NCBI GenBank assembly: GCA_030040915.1
Contig: JASHSI010000153.1
Span: 1-32,999 of the forward strand
Direction of reading: 5' to 3'
From: Thermoplasmata archaeon
GTDB lineage: Archaea > Thermoplasmatota > Thermoplasmata > Lutacidiplasmatales > UBA184
Length of the DNA stretch: 32,999 nucleotides
The first letter of the stretch is position 1. Each line of letters starts with the position of its first letter. The notes beneath the pieces were generated by a model that worked only from the letters and a program-made list of their open reading frames with translations, did no database searches and was not told the origin of the DNA. The translations under genes and the position numbers were made by a program. Positions 4,073-14,308 of the stretch are shown here, one piece after another.

Positions 4073-4876
4073 ATGATCCGCTCCACCTTCCTCCATCTCC
4101 CGGGGATCGGCCCCGCCACCGAGACCGCGCTCTGGGCCCGCGGGGTCCTCGATTGGGAGGAGCTGAGGGCCCTCGCGACGACGGGGACCGCCCGCCCCGG
4201 GACCGCGACGCCCGGGCTCGCTCGGGAGCTCGAGGAGAGCGAAGCGTCGCTCCGCGCGGAGCGCGTCGACTGGTTCGCCCGACGACTTCCCGCGTCCGAG
4301 GCGTGGCGCCTCTACCCCGCCTTCCGGCGCCACGCGGCGTTCCTCGACATCGAGACGACCGGCCTCTCTCCGTACGAAGGGATCGTCACGGCGGTGACGA
4401 TCCACGGGGGCGGGGGAACGCGCACGTTCGTGGCGGACGACGACCTCGAAGAACTCCCGGCCTACCTGCAGCGCTTCGGCCTTCTCGTCACGTTCAACGG
4501 CTCGCGCTTCGACGTCCCGTTCCTTGAGTTCCGCTTCCCGGGCCTCGTCGTACCTCCCGCGCACATCGATCTCCGCTACCTGTTCTACCGGATCGGCTAC
4601 GCGGGGGGCCTGAAGCGGATCGAGCAGACGCTGGGGATCGGGGACCGCCAGGGGGTGGAGGGGATCCACGGGCTCGATGCGGTCCGCCTCTGGGAGGCCC
4701 ATCGGCGCGGGGACGCCGGAGCGCTCGACCGCCTCGTCCGGTACAACCGGGCCGACACCGTCAACCTCGAGCCGCTCCTCGAGTTCGCGGTCGCGGAGAT
4801 CACCCGGCGCCTCCTTCCGGAGCGCCGGCGGGAACGGGCGGGCCAGGGAACCCGGCCTCCCGCCCCCCCGGCCTGA
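4073..4876 (+). CDS. Helix-hairpin-helix plus RNase H-like (YprB/DEDD-type) 3'-5' exonuclease domain protein
   Basis: N-terminal 'LHLPGIGPATETALWARGVLDWEEL' (HhH), then 'FLDIETTGLSPYEGIVTAVTIHGG', 'LVTFNGSRFDVPFLEFRFP', 'YNRADTVNLEPLLEFAV' (DEDD-like acidic motifs). Confidence 0.85.
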   Translation: MIRSTFLHLPGIGPATETALWARGVLDWEELRALATTGTARPGTATPGLARELEESEASLRAERVDWFARRLPASEAWRLYPAFRRHAAFLDIETTGLSPYEGIVTAVTIHGGGGTRTFVADDDLEELPAYLQRFGLLVTFNGSRFDVPFLEFRFPGLVVPPAHIDLRYLFYRIGYAGGLKRIEQTLGIGDRQGVEGIHGLDAVRLWEAHRRGDAGALDRLVRYNRADTVNLEPLLEFAVAEITRRLLPERRRERAGQGTRPPAPPA

Positions 4877-4971
4877 CCGGCCCCGGTGGTCCTTCCCGGC
4901 CCGGGAGGCCGCCACGGCGGGCGCTGAAAAAGCACCCAAACGGTTTATTCCCCGCCCGGTGGACGGGGGCC

Positions 4972-6108
4972 ATGCCCATCCGTCTCGCCGTGCCGAGGGA
5001 GACCGCTCCCGGCGAGCGCCGGGTCGCGATCGTCCCCGAGGTGGCCCAGAAGCTCGGAAAACAGGGCTTCGAGATCGTTGTCGAGACCGGGGCGGGGGAG
5101 CGGGCCGGCTACCCCGATTCGGCCTACGAGGCCGTGGGAGTGCGAATCGCCCCGGACGCCTCCGCGCTGGTCGCCGCGTCCATCCTCGTCGGCGTTCAGC
5201 CGCCGGAGCCGGCGGCCCTCCGACGCTTCGCCGCCGGGACGACCACCATCTCCCTCCTCTACCCGTCCCGCCGCCCGGCGACCGTCCAGGCGCTCGCCTC
5301 GGGCCGCTTCCGGTCGTTCGCTCTCGAGCTCCTCCCGAGGATCTCCCGGGCCCAGAGCATGGACGTCCTCTCCTCGCAGGCGACGCTCGCCGGCTACGCC
5401 GCCGTCATCCTCGGCGCCGAGCTCACCCCCCGGATCTTCCCGATGCTGACGACCGCCGCCGGGACGATCCGGCCGGGAAACGTCCTCGTCCTCGGGGCCG
5501 GCGTCGCCGGCCTGATGGCGATCGCCACCGCCCGCCGGCTCGGGGCCGTCGTCGAAGGCTACGACGTCCGGCGGGCGGCGGGCGAGCAGGTCCGCAGCCT
5601 GGGGGCGAAGTTCCTCGAGCTCAGCATCAACGCGGAGGGGAGCGGGGGGTACGCCCGCGAGCTCACCGCGGAGGAGAAGGTCCAGGAGCAGGCGATGGTC
5701 GGGGAGGCGCTCGCCCGCTCGGACGTGGTGATCACGACCGCGAACGTGCCGGGGAAGAAGGCCCCGATCCTCGTCGCCAAGGAGGTCGTCGCCCGGATGA
5801 AGCCCGGCGCGGTGATCGTGGACCTCGCGGCCGAGTCGGGCGGGAACTGCGAGCTCACCCAGCCGGACCAGACGATCGTCTCGGGCGGGGTCACGATCGC
5901 CGGCCCGACGAACCTACCGAGCCGGGTCGCCTTCCACGCGAGCCAGATGTACGCCCGGAACGTCCAGGCGTTCCTGGGGATCCTCGTGAAGCCGGACGGG
6001 TCGTACGCCGAGGAGGCGACCGACGAGATCCTGCAGGCGACGATGGTGACGAAGGACGGGTCGATCGTGCACGGGCCGACCCGCGAGCTCCTCGGGGCGA
6101 AGGCATGA
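4972..6108 (+). CDS. pntAA: Proton-translocating NAD(P) transhydrogenase, alpha-1 subunit (soluble dI)
   Basis: PETAPGERRVAIVPEVAQKLGKQGFEIVVETGAG; alanine dehydrogenase/PNT-type Rossmann fold 'VLVLGAGVAGLMAIATARRLGAVVEGYDVR'; first of three consecutive pnt genes. Confidence 0.95.
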   Translation: MPIRLAVPRETAPGERRVAIVPEVAQKLGKQGFEIVVETGAGERAGYPDSAYEAVGVRIAPDASALVAASILVGVQPPEPAALRRFAAGTTTISLLYPSRRPATVQALASGRFRSFALELLPRISRAQSMDVLSSQATLAGYAAVILGAELTPRIFPMLTTAAGTIRPGNVLVLGAGVAGLMAIATARRLGAVVEGYDVRRAAGEQVRSLGAKFLELSINAEGSGGYARELTAEEKVQEQAMVGEALARSDVVITTANVPGKKAPILVAKEVVARMKPGAVIVDLAAESGGNCELTQPDQTIVSGGVTIAGPTNLPSRVAFHASQMYARNVQAFLGILVKPDGSYAEEATDEILQATMVTKDGSIVHGPTRELLGAKA

Positions 6109-6401
6109 TCGCCGAGGTCTGGGCGGCGCTGTACATCGTCCTCCTCGCGGCGTTCGTCGGCTACGAGGTGATCCGGAGGATCCCGGTCCTCCTCCACACG
6201 CCGCTCATGAGCGGTTCGAACTTCATCCACGGGATCGTCCTCATCGGGGCGATGGTGGCGCTCGGCTTCGCCACCACGGTGCCGGAGGAGGTCCTCGGCT
6301 TCCTCGCGGTGGTGATGGGCGCGATGAACGTCACCGGCGGCTACGTCGTCACCGACCGCATCCTCCAGATGTTCGACCGCTCGAAGTCGAAGGGGCCGTA
6401 G
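6105..6401 (+). CDS. pntAB: NAD(P) transhydrogenase, alpha-2 subunit (membrane)
   Basis: 98 aa; ATGA overlap with pntAA; 'HTPLMSGSNFIHGIVLIGAMVALGFATT...GAMNVTGGYVVTDRILQMF' is characteristic of the PntA C-terminal membrane subunit. Confidence 0.95.
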   Translation: MIAEVWAALYIVLLAAFVGYEVIRRIPVLLHTPLMSGSNFIHGIVLIGAMVALGFATTVPEEVLGFLAVVMGAMNVTGGYVVTDRILQMFDRSKSKGP

Positions 6402-7778
6402 ATGGTCGATCTCAACGACCCGATCTACGTCCTGACGATCCTGTTCTTCGTCCTCGCGCTCCAGCGGATGAGCGATCCGAAGACCGCCCGCTCGGGGATC
6501 GTCTACGCGGGGGGCGCGATGCTCGTCGCCGTCCTCGTCACGTTCCTGGTCCCGGGCCTCGGCAACCTCCTCTGGATCGTGATCGGGGCGCTGATCGGGG
6601 GCTTCCTCGGCTACTACTCGGCGAAGCGGGTCAAGATGACCGACATGCCCCAGATGGTGGCGATCTTCAACGGGATGGGCGGCGGGGCCGCCGCCGGGAT
6701 CGCCGCCGTCGAGCTCGTCGCCTACGCGGAGGCCCCGCAGTACCTCGGCCTCGCCCTCGCCGGGGCGCTCATCGGCGCGACCTCGTTCGCGGGGAGCGTC
6801 ATCGCCTTCCTGAAGCTCCAAGGGTGGATGACCCAGAAGCCGGTCACCTTCCCCGGTCAGCAGCCGCTGAACCTCGCCGTGCTCGCCGGGGCGGTGATCT
6901 TCGCCGGCGCGACGCTCTACCTCGCGACGAACGCCTGGCTCGCGGTGTTCTTCGCGCTCGCGCTCGCCTACGGGCTCCTCATGACGCTCCCGATCGGCGG
7001 GGCGGACATGCCGGTCGTCATCTCGATGTACAACGCCCTCACGGGCGTGGCGGTCGCGCTCGACGGGTTCGCCCTCATCGACTCCTCCGCGGGGGCGGCC
7101 GCGTACGCGATGATCATCGCGGGGACGCTCGTCGGCGCGGCCGGGTCGATCCTCACGATCGTCATGGCGCGGGCGATGAACCGGTCGATCGGGAACGTCC
7201 TCTTCGGCGCGTTCGGGGCGACGACCGAGACGGGCGCCCAGGTGAGCGGCACGATGCGCACGATCGAACCGGACGACGCGGCGGTGCTCCTTGCCTATGC
7301 CGCGCGGGTCGTGATCACCCCGGGCTACGGGCTCGCCGTGGCCCAGGCGCAGCACAAGGTCAAGGAGCTCATGGACGTCCTCGAGTCGAAGGGGGTCATC
7401 GTCCGGTTCGGAATCCATCCGGTCGCGGGCCGTATGCCCGGGCACATGAACGTGCTCCTCGCCGAGGCCGGCGTGCCCTACGACCACCTCCTCGACCGGG
7501 ACGAGGTGAACCCCGAGTTCGCCAGCACCGACGTGGTGCTCGTGATCGGCGCGAACGACGTGGTGAACCCGGCGGCCCGCCGCGCGGGAAGCCCGCTCCA
7601 GGGCATGCCGATCCTCGACGTCGACCAGGCGAAGAACGTGATCGTCCTCAAGCGCGGCCAGGGCAAGGGGTTCGCGGGGATCGAGAACGACCTCTTCTAC
7701 AAGGACAACGCGCGGATGCTCTACGGCGACGCCCAGGAGAGCGTTTCGAAGCTCGTCCAAGCCATCAAGAAGCTCTGA
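6402..7778 (+). CDS. pntB: NAD(P) transhydrogenase, beta subunit
   Basis: 458 aa; 'QMVAIFNGMGGGAAA', 'GADMPVVISMYNALTGVAVALDGF', 'VITPGYGLAVAQAQHKVKEL', 'HPVAGRMPGHMNVLLAEAGVPYD', 'LVIGANDVVNPAAR'. Confidence 0.97.
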   Translation: MVDLNDPIYVLTILFFVLALQRMSDPKTARSGIVYAGGAMLVAVLVTFLVPGLGNLLWIVIGALIGGFLGYYSAKRVKMTDMPQMVAIFNGMGGGAAAGIAAVELVAYAEAPQYLGLALAGALIGATSFAGSVIAFLKLQGWMTQKPVTFPGQQPLNLAVLAGAVIFAGATLYLATNAWLAVFFALALAYGLLMTLPIGGADMPVVISMYNALTGVAVALDGFALIDSSAGAAAYAMIIAGTLVGAAGSILTIVMARAMNRSIGNVLFGAFGATTETGAQVSGTMRTIEPDDAAVLLAYAARVVITPGYGLAVAQAQHKVKELMDVLESKGVIVRFGIHPVAGRMPGHMNVLLAEAGVPYDHLLDRDEVNPEFASTDVVLVIGANDVVNPAARRAGSPLQGMPILDVDQAKNVIVLKRGQGKGFAGIENDLFYKDNARMLYGDAQESVSKLVQAIKKL

Positions 7779-7853
7779 GCGGGGGCCGCGGGCCGAGCCA
7801 CGGAATCGCATACCCTTAGCTATTTGACCGACGGACGCGCACGGGCGCTCCAG

Positions 7854-10028
7854 ATGCGCGGTTTCCGGACCCGGACGCTTCCGGTGGCGCTCGCGATCGC
7901 CCTGCTCCTCTTGGGCACCGGCCTCTCCCTCTCGAGCCCGACGACCCGCTCGGCCGCGGGGGCTCCGGTGTCCGGCGCCGCCCCGATCGCCGCCGGCTTC
8001 CCCCCCTCGGCGCGGCCGGCGGTCCCGGCGTCGGAGCTCGGGCCGCTCCCGGCCGTCCTCGTCGACCACGGCGCGCCCCCGCTCGGCGCGATCCGGGGCG
8101 CGTCCACGCGGGCCGCCTGGGGGATCACCGACGCCGGCGTCACCGACAACGAGACCGCGAGCTACAGCTACTCGACGTCGGCGTTCATGGGAACGCTCGA
8201 CATCCAGGCGATGGACGCGGAGTACCTCTACACCTACCACAACACGACCTACGACTACGCGGGCAACACGATCCAGCTGAACGCCGTCCTCGTCCTCTCC
8301 AACGGGACGAACCTGACCGCGTTCTGGATCCAGGACGTGCCGTTCTTCGAGCCCCCGGACGACGGGATCGCCCTCGAGGACAACATCTGGAACCTGTCGA
8401 GCTCGGACACGCTGCAGGCGAACTCGGTCGTCGGGTACGGCGGCGAGGAGTCGGCCGGCGGGGGCGTCACGATCTACGCCGACTCGGCGAACACGACCCT
8501 CCCGGGGAACGACCTCGATCTCGGCTTCCCCGCGAACGTCTCCGCGCTCGTCGTCACCGGGACGGCCTCCGGGGTCCCGTACGTCGACTTCGAGTACAAC
8601 GACGGGTACGGTTGGCAGACCTACGACAACGCGACGTTCCCGTGGGCCGCGAACGGCTGGACGAACGACGGGTTCGTCGTCGACGGGTCGATGACGACGC
8701 CGCTCGGCCTCTACTACGACGCCGAGTGGGTGTACGGGGGGCCGGGCGGAGGGCTCGACTCCACCAACGTCCAGGCGAACTTCACGATGACCCTGCAGTA
8801 CTGGAACGGGCACAACTTCCAGGCGGTCCCGAACGCGATCAACGTCGCGCTCGACACCGGCGAGGCGATGCAGGACGTCCTCGACTCCCCCGGCATCGGG
8901 GAGGGCGCGGGGATGCCCTCCGCCACGATCACCGTCGGGACGTCCACCCCGGGCTTCCTCTACCAGCGCTCCCAGATCGCGCTCGTCAACATCACGAGCT
9001 ACCTTCCGGACGCCACGATCACCGTCGGGGGGGCGAGCTACCCGTTCCAGGGGACCGACGCGAACGTGACCCTCGCCCCGGGTACCTACTCGTTCACCCT
9101 CTGGGCGGACGGGAAGGCCGTGGAATCCCAGAACGCCTCGCTCACCGCCGGGGAGTACCTCGCCCTCGAATTCGCCACCCCCCCGAAGCCGAGCGCGGTC
9201 GCGTTCGACGCGTCCGGGTTGCCCGTCGGGGTGGAGTGGCATGTCGTCGTCGGGAACACGACCTACACCTCGTCCAACGCCTCGATCTCCCTCGAGCTCC
9301 TGAACGGAACCTACGCCTATGCGGTCGTGCCGGTCCCCGGCTACTACCTCTCGAGCTACGCAGGGACGTTCCGGGTCGCCGGACGGAGCGTGACGCTCTC
9401 CGTCCACTGGTCGGTCTACGTCCTTCCCGTGTCGATTCAGGCCGTCGGGCTGCCGGACGGGATCGCCTGGTCGGTCGACCTGACCCCCCTCGGGGCCTCG
9501 GTCGGGGCGGAGGAGTATGGGAACGGCTCCGGCACGCTATCGGCCGAGCTCGCGAACGGCTCGTACGCCGTCTCGGTCTCGGTGCCGTACCTCTACGAAG
9601 CGGTCCTCGGCGACGATTCGATCACCGTCCAGGGGGCGGCGGTGGAGGTGGAGGTCCAGTTCGGCGTCCGCGAATCCTACCTCGTAGGGACGGTCGGTCC
9701 GACGGGCGCCGTCTTCACCATCGACGGCACCGTCGTCCCCCTCGGGGCGAACGGGAGCTACAACGAGACGCTGACGCCCGGCACCTACGACGCCTCGGCG
9801 AGCCGCCCCGGGGACGTCTCCGTGAACGAGACCGTCGTCCTGACGCCCGGGAACGCCACCTCGTTGAACCTCACCCTCCAGCCGGTCGCCCACTCCGGGG
9901 GCGCGCCGTCGAACCCACAATCCCCGTCGAGCCCGTTCTCGACGGAGGTGCTCCTGGGCCTCGGCCTGGCCGTCGCCGTCGCGCTCCTCGGCGCGGCGAT
10001 CCTCGTCCGGCGCCGCCGCCCGACGTAG
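7854..10028 (+). CDS. Secreted thermopsin-family (peptidase A5-like) protein with C-terminal Ig/PEGA-like repeats and a C-terminal membrane anchor
   Basis: Signal peptide (RTRTLPVALAIALLLLGTGLSL); 'GITDAGVTDN.TASYSYSTSAFMGTLDI', 'TNLTAFWIQDVPFF...FEPPDDGIALEDNIWNLSS', typical of thermopsins; repeated 'GLPxGxxWxVxx' modules; C-terminal TM 'LLGLGLAVAVALLGAAILVRRRRPT'. ATG at 7854 preferred over the TTG at 7824 because of a TATA-like element at ~7816-7825. Confidence 0.82.
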   Translation: MRGFRTRTLPVALAIALLLLGTGLSLSSPTTRSAAGAPVSGAAPIAAGFPPSARPAVPASELGPLPAVLVDHGAPPLGAIRGASTRAAWGITDAGVTDNETASYSYSTSAFMGTLDIQAMDAEYLYTYHNTTYDYAGNTIQLNAVLVLSNGTNLTAFWIQDVPFFEPPDDGIALEDNIWNLSSSDTLQANSVVGYGGEESAGGGVTIYADSANTTLPGNDLDLGFPANVSALVVTGTASGVPYVDFEYNDGYGWQTYDNATFPWAANGWTNDGFVVDGSMTTPLGLYYDAEWVYGGPGGGLDSTNVQANFTMTLQYWNGHNFQAVPNAINVALDTGEAMQDVLDSPGIGEGAGMPSATITVGTSTPGFLYQRSQIALVNITSYLPDATITVGGASYPFQGTDANVTLAPGTYSFTLWADGKAVESQNASLTAGEYLALEFATPPKPSAVAFDASGLPVGVEWHVVVGNTTYTSSNASISLELLNGTYAYAVVPVPGYYLSSYAGTFRVAGRSVTLSVHWSVYVLPVSIQAVGLPDGIAWSVDLTPLGASVGAEEYGNGSGTLSAELANGSYAVSVSVPYLYEAVLGDDSITVQGAAVEVEVQFGVRESYLVGTVGPTGAVFTIDGTVVPLGANGSYNETLTPGTYDASASRPGDVSVNETVVLTPGNATSLNLTLQPVAHSGGAPSNPQSPSSPFSTEVLLGLGLAVAVALLGAAILVRRRRPT

Positions 10029-11423: not shown

Positions 11424-13547
11424 ATGCTCGACCCCGCCCCGGCCTTCCTCCTCCTCGCGTCGCTCGCCGCCGGGATGGCGGCGATCACCGCCTACCTCGT
11501 CCGATGGGCGGCCGAGGCGCGGACGGTCTCGGCCGGCGCGGTCGTGCTCTTCCTCATCGGCATGATGATTGCGATGCTCGCCGGGGCGCTCCTCTACTAT
11601 CGAAGCCCGGGACGGACCGGGCTCGTCGACGGGCTCTGGCTCGCGAGCGGCGTGATGTCGCTGAGCGTCTTCCCGGTCGTGACGATCTTCCTGAAGGAGA
11701 CGACGGCCCGTGTGCGCGCCGGGGCCGCCTACGTGGCCCCCGTCCTCCGGCGCCGCTGGGCGTTCGCGCTCGCCGTCGTCGGCCTCGTGCTCCTCAACGA
11801 GCTCCTCATGGGCTACACGTTCGGGCGCGCCGCCGGCGCGATCCCCGCGGTCTCGGGAGGCACGCTCCTCGGCAACCTCGCGCTCGCGGTCAACTCGCCG
11901 TGGTTCCTCCTCCCGATGGCCCTCGAAATGGGACTGTCCGTCCTCCTCCTCCGCGACCTTCTCCCCGCCTCCCTGCGCGGGCTCCTCCTCGCGCAGGCGG
12001 GGCTCATGGCGCTCGCCCCCACCGCGTTCTCGGGCACGGGGGCGGTCCGGGCGGCGACCGTCCTCGGGAGCGCGGTCATGATCGTCGTCGTCATCGTGGT
12101 GATGGAGCACCTCTACCGGCACCCCGCGATCGAGACGGCCCGGGCGGCGTACATCGCGGGCCTGTTCGGCGCCTACGCCGCCATGATGGCCGGCCTCTAC
12201 GTGTGGCTCACCGGCGGGGGTGGGTTCCTCTTCGCCGGGTCGGTCCTCCTCGAGATGGCGCTCTTCTTCGAGGTCGCCCTCCTGCCGGAGCGGTTCGGCC
12301 GGGAGGAGCGGTTCACCTGGCAGCTCGAGCCGGAGTGGACGTTCGCGCTCCTCTCCGGGATCTTCCTCGCCGAGCTCTTCATGGGCGCGGTCCTCGACCT
12401 CGCCGTCGAGCCAGCGGCCTACGCGGGCGTCTTCCCGGCCCTCCCGCTCACGGGCTCGCTCGCCACGGCGCTCTCGAACGCGGCCTCGAACGGGTTCTGG
12501 TTCCTGGCGGACGTGACCGGATCGACCTGGTTCCTCGCGATGATGGGGGTCGAGATGGGAGCCCTCGTCGCGTTCAAGATGCGCGAGGTCCGCCAACGGG
12601 AGACGAAGGTCCGGATGGGCCTCATGCTCGCCTGCTACGCCGCCTTCGCGGTCTTCTTTCCGAGCCTGTACTACTCGACGCTCTTCCCGAACGCGCCGAC
12701 GGGCACCGCGGTGCCGTTCCTCGGCTGGAGCATGGGGATCGGATCCGCCCCTCTCGCCCCCTCGGTGTTCACCGTCTTGATCGTGACCTACGCCGTCACC
12801 GGGGCGCTCGCGCTGCTCTTCGGACGCCGTGCGATCTGCTCGGTGTTCTGCACGGCCGCGGTCATGTACCAGGGGACGACGATCGACCGGATGAAGTCGT
12901 TCAACCGGACCTCGCGGATCGGGCACAAGTACCTCGGGAGCCGATTCTCCCGGGCGTACTCGGTGACGACCGGCGCGGTGATGGCCGGGCTGATCGGCGC
13001 CTCGGGCCTCTCCTACCTCGACTCGATCGGGCGCCTGAACGTCACCGTGGGCGGGACCGACCCGACCGTCTTCCTCTTCGCCCTATCCTTCGGGGTCCTC
13101 TGGTACGTGACGTTCGTCTCGATCCCGTACGTCGGGAACTACAACTGCGTCACGCTCGGCTACTGCTACACCGGTACGATCGCCTCGGCGTTCCAGAAGA
13201 TCGGCTTCTTCTCGCTGAAGGTCCGGGACAAGAAGATCTGCCAAGCGTGCACGACGATCGATTGCGCGAAGTCCTGCCCGGTCGGGCTCGTCGACATGCC
13301 CGGGCACTTCCGCACGAAGGGGGTCTTCCGGAGCACGAAGTGCTGCGGGGTGGGAAGCTGCGCGGACGCCTGCCCGTACGGGAACCTCTACCTCTTCGAT
13401 GTCCGCCACTGGATCGCCGAGCGCGTGGGCCTCCGGCGGGGACCATCCACCGCGAACCGGCTCACGGTCTTGCCGAACCCCGGCGCGCGGTCCGCTCCGA
13501 CCAACCCGCCGCCGGCGATCGCCGCGTCCCCCGGTCCGGCGAAGTAG
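11424..13547 (+). CDS. Large polytopic membrane protein with a C-terminal polyferredoxin-like (NapH/NosR/CcoG-like) 2x[4Fe-4S] region
   Basis: 707 aa. About 450 aa of hydrophobic helices, then 'RRAICSVFCTAAVMYQGTTIDRMKSF', 'CVTLGYC', 'KICQACTTIDCAKSCPVG' and 'KCCGVGSCADACPYGNLYLF'. Confidence 0.85.
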   Translation: MLDPAPAFLLLASLAAGMAAITAYLVRWAAEARTVSAGAVVLFLIGMMIAMLAGALLYYRSPGRTGLVDGLWLASGVMSLSVFPVVTIFLKETTARVRAGAAYVAPVLRRRWAFALAVVGLVLLNELLMGYTFGRAAGAIPAVSGGTLLGNLALAVNSPWFLLPMALEMGLSVLLLRDLLPASLRGLLLAQAGLMALAPTAFSGTGAVRAATVLGSAVMIVVVIVVMEHLYRHPAIETARAAYIAGLFGAYAAMMAGLYVWLTGGGGFLFAGSVLLEMALFFEVALLPERFGREERFTWQLEPEWTFALLSGIFLAELFMGAVLDLAVEPAAYAGVFPALPLTGSLATALSNAASNGFWFLADVTGSTWFLAMMGVEMGALVAFKMREVRQRETKVRMGLMLACYAAFAVFFPSLYYSTLFPNAPTGTAVPFLGWSMGIGSAPLAPSVFTVLIVTYAVTGALALLFGRRAICSVFCTAAVMYQGTTIDRMKSFNRTSRIGHKYLGSRFSRAYSVTTGAVMAGLIGASGLSYLDSIGRLNVTVGGTDPTVFLFALSFGVLWYVTFVSIPYVGNYNCVTLGYCYTGTIASAFQKIGFFSLKVRDKKICQACTTIDCAKSCPVGLVDMPGHFRTKGVFRSTKCCGVGSCADACPYGNLYLFDVRHWIAERVGLRRGPSTANRLTVLPNPGARSAPTNPPPAIAASPGPAK

Positions 13548-13618: not shown

Positions 13619-14308
13619 ATGCCTACGCGGTCGAGGACCCACCGGACCACCGAGGAGCCCCCGGGTCCCTCCTCGGCCGGGGAAGGTGCCGTTCGACGGC
13701 ACGCCGTGTTCGTCCGCGGGCTCAACGTCGGGGGGCGGACCGTACGGATGGATCCGTTCGTCCGGTCGCTCGCCCCCCTCGCCGTCGCTAGCGTAGGGGC
13801 GGCCGGTTCCTTCGCGGTCCGGACGGCGTCCGCGCGGAGCACGATCGCCGAGGCATTCGCGCGGGCCCTGCCATCGATCCCGTTCGCGATCCTCTCGGAG
13901 GACGAGCTGGCGGCGATCTTGGAGAGCGGACCGGTGGGCGCCTCCTCCCCCGAGCCCGAAACGCGTTGGTCGGCCTCGCTCCTCGCATCCCGGCCGACGA
14001 AGGCTCCCCGGCTCCCCCTTGAGCGGCCGGAGGGGGCGAGTTGGCAGACCCGTCTCCTTGAGCAGCGCGGATCGGCGGTACTCGGCGTCTACCGGCGCCG
14101 TGCGGATCCCAAGGAACGGCTCGTGTATCCGAACGAGGTGGTCGAACGCGAGTTCGGTTCGCCCGCCACGACGCGCTGGTGGGAGACGCTCCTCGCCGTC
14201 CGGGACGCCTTCGGACCGGCGCCGGTTCCGCGGCGGCCCCCGTCGGCCCTTACGGTCCCGCCCGCCGACGCCCCTCGGGGCCGGCGACGACGGTCGAGTT
14301 CGAGCTGA
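13619..14308 (+). CDS. DUF1697-family protein
   Basis: 'HAVFVRGLNVGGRTVRMDPFVRSLAPLAVASVGAAGSFAVRT' matches the DUF1697 N-terminal signature (FLRGINVGG...); 'LVYPNEVVEREFGSPATTRWWETLLAV'. Confidence 0.75.
   Translation: MPTRSRTHRTTEEPPGPSSAGEGAVRRHAVFVRGLNVGGRTVRMDPFVRSLAPLAVASVGAAGSFAVRTASARSTIAEAFARALPSIPFAILSEDELAAILESGPVGASSPEPETRWSASLLASRPTKAPRLPLERPEGASWQTRLLEQRGSAVLGVYRRRADPKERLVYPNEVVEREFGSPATTRWWETLLAVRDAFGPAPVPRRPPSALTVPPADAPRGRRRRSSSS

Follow-up and report, generated by a model that had tools for sequence, protein, structure and literature searches.

A duplicated Met/Glu membrane module fused to an Fe-S domain in archaea: a possible copper-handling factor

Background

What is the function of a large archaeal membrane protein in which glutamates recur at equivalent places inside apolar helices? 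The protein, here called F0, has 707 residues and is encoded in the window, by which we mean the whole stretch of 32,999 nucleotides of a Thermoplasmata archaeon that was analysed (contig JASHSI010000153.1, assembly GCA_030040915.1). The original prediction proposed that its membrane domain is internally duplicated, that each copy carries conserved glutamates, and that these could form a pseudo-symmetric site for ions, quinone or metal. Two questions follow: whether the duplication is real, and which of the three kinds of site is the most plausible.

The question of a metal bears on a gap in the biology of these organisms. Copper loading of complex IV and of the blue copper carriers in aerobic acidophilic archaea lacks a convincing Sco1, Cox11 or PCuAC candidate in this class, and our literature searches found no named copper factor for an archaeal oxidase. 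Met, Glu and Cys serve as Cu(I) ligands in known transporters, and Met-based copper sites are present in CcoA and in the copper ATPases (PMC7558416). The importer CcoA/CalT is needed for the copper supply of the oxidase, and CcoG, which is encoded with the cbb3 oxidase, carries two [4Fe-4S] clusters and acts as a cupric reductase (PMC7558416).

Results

The membrane part of F0 has no match in the catalogues searched

The reading frame and coordinates of the original prediction were correct, aa 112-178 corresponding to positions 11757-11957 and aa 305-388 to 12336-12587 (Table 1). The AF2 model of F0 had a mean pLDDT of 80.4 and a pTM of 0.82, with most of aa 11-300 above 90. A scan of public genomes gave homologues at 43 loci, and 39 of 61 genomes carried F0 when relatives were included. 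One locus (L108:6665-8583, genome G157) has F0 as two overlapping reading frames of 375 and 276 aa, with the break near aa 400, which may be a split gene or a frameshift; the protein is whole in its relatives.

The family of the membrane module is unnamed in the catalogues searched, in line with the original prediction, which named no family for this arrangement: Pfam, NCBIfam, the PDB by sequence or profile, and Foldseek against the PDB returned no match to the membrane part, and Foldseek of F0 against the PDB gave nothing at E <= 0.001. Searches of the PDB with F0 and its profile found essentially the ferredoxin part only, plus an insignificant match to NuoJ, and the Pfam and NCBIfam scans of F0 gave Fer4-type matches only, all below cut-off. 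The C-terminal part had no tblastn match in plasmids.

Table 1. Positions in the window of F0, its partner F1 and the features described in the text
Feature	Position	Strand	Remarks
F1, partner membrane protein, 424 aa	10140..11414	+	immediately upstream of F0; invariant Cys163-Cys164 (GACCST)
F0, 707 aa	11424..13547	+	15 TM helices predicted; two Met/Glu modules followed by a C-terminal Fe-S domain
Repeat 1, aa 35-232, TM2-7	11526..12119	+	hhalign to repeat 2, E 2.2e-7; with TM1, a stand-alone protein family
MM-xx-M motif (Met47, Met48, Met51), TM2	11562..11576	+	Met48 and Met51 invariant; Met47 conserved to 96% in the near set; depth 0.48-0.64
Met78, TM3	11655..11657	+	invariant; depth 0.50
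Glu126, motif NE-xx-MG (Met129), TM4	11799..11801	+	invariant in 64 homologues; depth 0.60
Glu168, motif M-xx-EM (Met165, Met169), TM5	11925..11927	+	invariant; depth 0.56
Met219, TM7	12078..12080	+	invariant; depth 0.52
Repeat 2, aa 238-466, TM8-13	12135..12821	+	partly degenerate in deep branches
Glu317 (with Met320), TM10	12372..12374	+	repeat-2 counterpart of Glu126; Glu317 invariant; Met320 varies among deep branches
Glu377 (with Met374, Met378), TM11	12552..12554	+	repeat-2 counterpart of Glu168; Glu377 and Met378 invariant
C472-xxx-C476, after TM13	12837..12851	+	cytoplasmic side; invariant in 64; paired with CSWVC in the alignment to E. coli NapH
C575-x5-C581, after TM15	13146..13166	+	cytoplasmic side; invariant in 64
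Ferredoxin-like 2x[4Fe-4S] domain	13233..13385	+	Pfam Fer4_7 4.5e-5, Fer4_10 4.5e-4, below curated cut-offs; cytoplasmic by positive-inside rule

The membrane part is a parallel duplication

Local alignment of aa 100-230 with aa 286-420 of the single sequence scored 76, and the maximum among 6000 composition and local shuffles was 73. Comparison of the two repeats as profiles gave E 2e-5 with 47 sequences, and profiles of aa 1-236 and aa 236-470 from 64 sequences gave E 2.2e-7 with a score of 53.3, the maximum in 60 column shuffles being 30.8. Since no shuffle reaches the single-sequence score and the profile E-value is 2.2e-7, the internal duplication first claimed by eye is real. It is more extensive than that claim: both motif blocks match, but each copy comprises six helices and not the motifs alone. 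The profile alignment spans approximately aa 45-175 against aa 252-384; helices outside this span were paired by their order and by topology. In the AF2 model TM2-7 and TM8-13 have the same orientation, so the repeats are parallel. The block LLEMALFFEVALL, which had been taken for an extra element between the copies, is not an insertion; it is the counterpart of helix 3 of repeat 1 (aa 64-90, with Met78), and Glu283 inside it is not conserved.

Repeat 1 together with TM1 also occurs by itself, as a protein of about 300 aa that adjoins F0 in many loci, and hhalign of repeat 1 with two sets of these single-module proteins gave E-values of 7.6e-14 and 3.2e-26. The set from Thermoplasmatales (group A) retains the motifs MMxxM, ExxM and MxxEM, and that from Lutacidiplasmatales mainly ExxM. 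Given these stand-alone proteins, the functional unit is a seven-helix Met/Glu module, of which F0 is a duplicated and fused version. A shorter paralogue of the N-terminal module (about aa 6-294) lies directly beside F0, usually upstream, at loci L013, L014, L015, L017, L023-L026 and L035.

A core of invariant Met and Glu is predicted at mid-membrane

Conservation was analysed in 47 full-length homologues and then in 64, down to 28-36% identity, a column of aa 1-466 being counted as near-invariant at a threshold of 97%. All 64 homologues, the most distant at 28% identity, have Glu126, Glu168, Glu317 and Glu377, and these residues sit mid-helix at matching positions of the two parallel repeats, as proposed. 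The original prediction missed the methionines. Of the 24 near-invariant columns of aa 1-466, Met accounts for 11 and Glu for 5, and the 243 Leu, Ile, Val, Phe and Ala positions contribute only 3; the hypergeometric probability of such an enrichment is 5e-10 for Met and 1e-3 for Glu. The invariant Met and Glu are M18, M48, M51, M78, E126, M129, M165, E168, M169, M219, E228, M278, E317, M374, E377 and M378, and in the predicted model all except Glu228 are at a fractional helix depth of 0.3-0.72. Within membrane helices Leu or Ile can normally take the place of Met, and packing alone therefore explains its invariance here poorly.

Of ions, quinone and metal, metal fits best, because 11-12 invariant Met share the same helices as the glutamates. 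The pseudo-symmetry of the proposed site survives only in part, the two halves being unequal. Among the deep branches, about half have lost Met255, Glu277, Met373 and often Met320 from repeat 2, as seen in two of three Thermoplasmatales homologue groups, whereas repeat 1 retains its Met/Glu set nearly everywhere, apart from single substitutions. The site would therefore be quasi-symmetric at best and centred on repeat 1; a model with two strictly symmetric sites was rejected on account of this degeneracy.

No invariant His was found anywhere in aa 1-466 of the homologue alignments, which argues against haem in the membrane part and sets F0 apart from haem-binding quinol oxidoreductases such as NarI, CydA and cytochrome b; with the excess of Met, it weakens both the haem and the quinone readings. 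This bears on the main rival to a copper function, namely that F0 is itself an enzyme of the respiratory chain, a ferredoxin-type dehydrogenase in which electrons from cytoplasmic ferredoxin travel via the Fe-S domain and then via a membrane cofactor bound by Met and Glu to quinone or to an outside cupredoxin, perhaps with proton pumping by the glutamates. A quinone site has no need of a dozen invariant Met, the membrane part matched neither NrfD, NarI nor other quinone-site membrane proteins, and the single-module relatives have no redox domain. Some features of the gene neighbourhood and of the distribution, given below, favour the dehydrogenase, which overall we consider unlikely.

The C-terminal part resembles NapH and CcoG in layout

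The two [4Fe-4S] ferredoxin motifs, whose Cys are invariant, are predicted to face the cytoplasm by the positive-inside rule, basic residues being located in the loops expected on that side. The order of C472xxxC476, two TM helices, C575-x5-C581 and the two [4Fe-4S] motifs is that of NapH and YccM from E. coli. The profile of the C-terminal part is co-linear with NapH over 174 columns (hhalign E 1.5e-6) and matches YccM at 3e-6, values that include the ferredoxin part; without it the membrane match is weak (NapH E 0.009, YccM 0.08). CcoG/RdxA, YccM and NapH/NosR share with F0 the layout of (K/R)RxxC-S-xx-C, two TM helices, a second Cys pair with Gly, and two [4Fe-4S] motifs. F0 differs from CcoG and NapH in having no CxxxCP prolines (no Pro follows either of its Cys pairs), in the C-x5-C spacing of the second pair, and in its additional 13 TM helices, which include the Met/Glu module; Pfam Fer4_5 had no match in 49 F0 members. 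By sequence, then, the C-terminal part looks like a NapH/CcoG-like electron-transfer domain in layout, and membership of that family is less well supported.

F1, a membrane protein with an invariant Cys pair

In most Lutacidiplasmatales loci a second membrane protein, F1, is encoded within one or two genes of F0. F1 had no match in Pfam, NCBIfam or the PDB, and Foldseek against the PDB gave nothing at E <= 0.001. It resembles the MerT-type metal carriers in that a membrane helix holds two adjacent Cys (GACCST, GASCCLS); it differs in being much larger, and no homology to MerT was detectable. In other lineages Cys-bearing membrane proteins are found near F0, with CQCE in Thermoplasmatales and GxxCC in Nitrososphaerales, which are likened to F1 by their Cys motif only.

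Gene neighbourhood of F0

F0 or a single-module relative is linked to genes of complex III/IV in three lineages. In Thermoplasmatales loci F0 adjoins COX1, COX2, UbiA/CtaB (haem O synthase), a plastocyanin-type cupredoxin, Rieske protein and cytochrome b. A coxAC-coxB-Rieske-cytochrome b cluster lies beside F0 in an unclassified archaeon (L044) that groups with Nitrososphaerales in the tree, and in a complete Lutacidiplasmatales genome (G028) a single-module gene, truncated at the end of the segment retrieved, adjoins CoxB and a protein with a sulfocyanin domain. These complex III/IV neighbours would suit the dehydrogenase as well, and so would the NAD(P) transhydrogenase genes pntAB, which recur beside F0 in five loci (the window, L013, L014, L015 and L025).

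In the window F0 is surrounded by pntAB, a thermopsin-like gene and an ABC transporter; the COX1 gene of the same genome is on another contig (C9). Both points count against the copper function. The transhydrogenase genes (pntA, a part with 4 TM, and pntB; positions 4677-7778) lie upstream of the thermopsin-like gene and F1. The thermopsin-family protein (7824-10028; E 6.6e-55) combines a PEGA domain with what looks like a TM anchor at its C-terminus, and the gene directly after F0 (13619-14308) has a weak match to DUF1697 (E 8.3e-5, just under cut-off). An unnamed membrane protein of 82-87 aa, conserved in length, is encoded next to CoxB in Thermoplasmatales oxidase clusters (L110, L109, L112, L098). 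Two groups of neighbours were set aside: a 238-aa protein beside the T. volcanium homologue that looked like sulfocyanin by eye and had no Pfam match was dropped as evidence, and proteins of about 260 aa in L101, L103 and L107, CtaA-like by eye, were not counted, two having been scanned without a Pfam match.

The genome of the window has a second F0 (L003, G000:C11:7965-10052) with 59% identity and its own F1-type partner (GACCST). This paralogue adjoins a gene for a NicO nickel/cobalt transporter, which is compatible with import of another soft or transition metal, such as Fe(II), Ni or Co, reduced on arrival by the polyferredoxin. Iron uptake systems of the FtrABCD and P19-FTR1 type do couple a metal permease to a membrane polyferredoxin, FtrD, and Met and carboxylates coordinate Fe and Mn in NRAMP and VIT1; the habitats concerned are acidic and often rich in Fe(II). 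F0 differs from FtrABCD in being one fused protein with a Met-dominated core, and the REXXE motif of FTR1 is absent from its invariant positions. Met far outnumbers the carboxylates, which favours Cu(I), and the repeated linkage is to copper enzymes and not to iron uptake genes. We therefore regard another metal as improbable.

By eye only, genes resembling thiolase, 3-hydroxyacyl-CoA dehydrogenase and acyl-CoA dehydrogenase were seen near F0/F1 at seven loci (L009, L011, L020, L021, L034, L037, L041). Such fatty-acid oxidation genes, and an invariant polar residue set at mid-membrane with its own electron input, would be expected if the core were the active site of a membrane enzyme (an oxygenase or reductase that uses copper, for instance) and not a trafficking site. 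No substrate-pathway neighbour is consistent, and stand-alone modules exist without the electron-input domain; we give this reading very little weight.

F0 follows the haem-copper oxidase within its class

In 392 sampled genomes of the phylum, with COX1 counted above its Pfam cut-off, 55 of the 56 COX1-positive genomes from the window's class had F0, against 0 of the 136 COX1-positive genomes outside it. Six genomes, five of one genus and G159, have F0 without COX1, so that the haem-copper oxidase cannot be its sole client; their existence also favours the dehydrogenase. Cox11 and PCuAC were absent from 120 genomes of the class in searches that detected the positive controls, and no Pfam match to the Sco1, Cox11 or PCuAC domains (PF02630, PF04442, PF04314) was found in F0, F1 or the single-module proteins. 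The best Sco1 match in the class was at 1.4e-8 and most were near 1e-4, whereas Sco1-bearing families outside it typically reached 1e-15 to 1e-31 in the same 392 genomes; strong Sco1 matches are thus distributed opposite to F0. This split follows the class boundaries and is confounded with phylogeny, and it may represent one or two, or a few, independent events. The reported separate acquisition of coxA by Poseidoniales, from bacteria, agrees with the pattern (PMC9287336). As F0 prefers aerobic lineages, it may be tied to respiration as a whole and not to copper.

Discussion

Taken together, the Met/Glu core, the Fe-S tail and the oxidase neighbours suggest that F0 may be an undescribed factor that handles or reduces copper for aerobic respiration in acid-loving archaea. 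Our best reading, to which we give a probability of about one half, is that F0 has an intramembrane Met/Glu copper site that receives electrons from the cytoplasm and supplies Cu(I) to respiratory copper proteins. A more specific form of it, which we propose more tentatively, is a new membrane fold whose repeat forms a Met/Glu copper centre in mid-bilayer, wired to a cytoplasmic ferredoxin domain, and which would both make Cu(I) and bring it to haem-copper oxidases and cupredoxins.

According to the copper reading, the Met/Glu core would bind copper, and a cytoplasmic ferredoxin-like donor would pass electrons through the Fe-S clusters and the Cys at the membrane edge, keeping or making the copper as Cu(I). 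F0 and F1, whose Cys pair recalls MerT, may then move copper across or along the membrane, and the metal would be delivered to sites of the complex IV chain, CuA/CuB and the cupredoxins. The copper ligand, the reduction by ferredoxin, the delivery and the partnership with F1 are inferred and form a hypothesis that can be tested.

Parallels exist for both halves of such a protein. CcoA/CalT, a copper importer of the MFS, likewise has intramembrane Met-containing copper motifs and 6+6 parallel helices, and CcoG serves the assembly of a copper oxidase (PMC7558416), as we propose for F0. F0 differs from CcoA/CalT in having Glu instead of His and a fused redox domain; no sequence relation between them was found, and Foldseek matches of F0 to the MFS fold appeared only at E >= 0.5 with a TM-score <= 0.2. 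F0 might thus take the role held elsewhere by CcoA with CcoG and by Sco1/Cox11, by means of unrelated membrane machinery.

The module would be a new membrane family for the protein catalogues. If the copper reading is true, F0 would be an archaeal solution to the supply of Cu(I) in lineages without recognisable Sco1, Cox11 or PCuAC. The F0 gene, conserved but without a name, follows the oxidase in this class, adjoins it in several lineages and encodes an invariant Met/Glu core, which makes it a candidate that can be tested directly.
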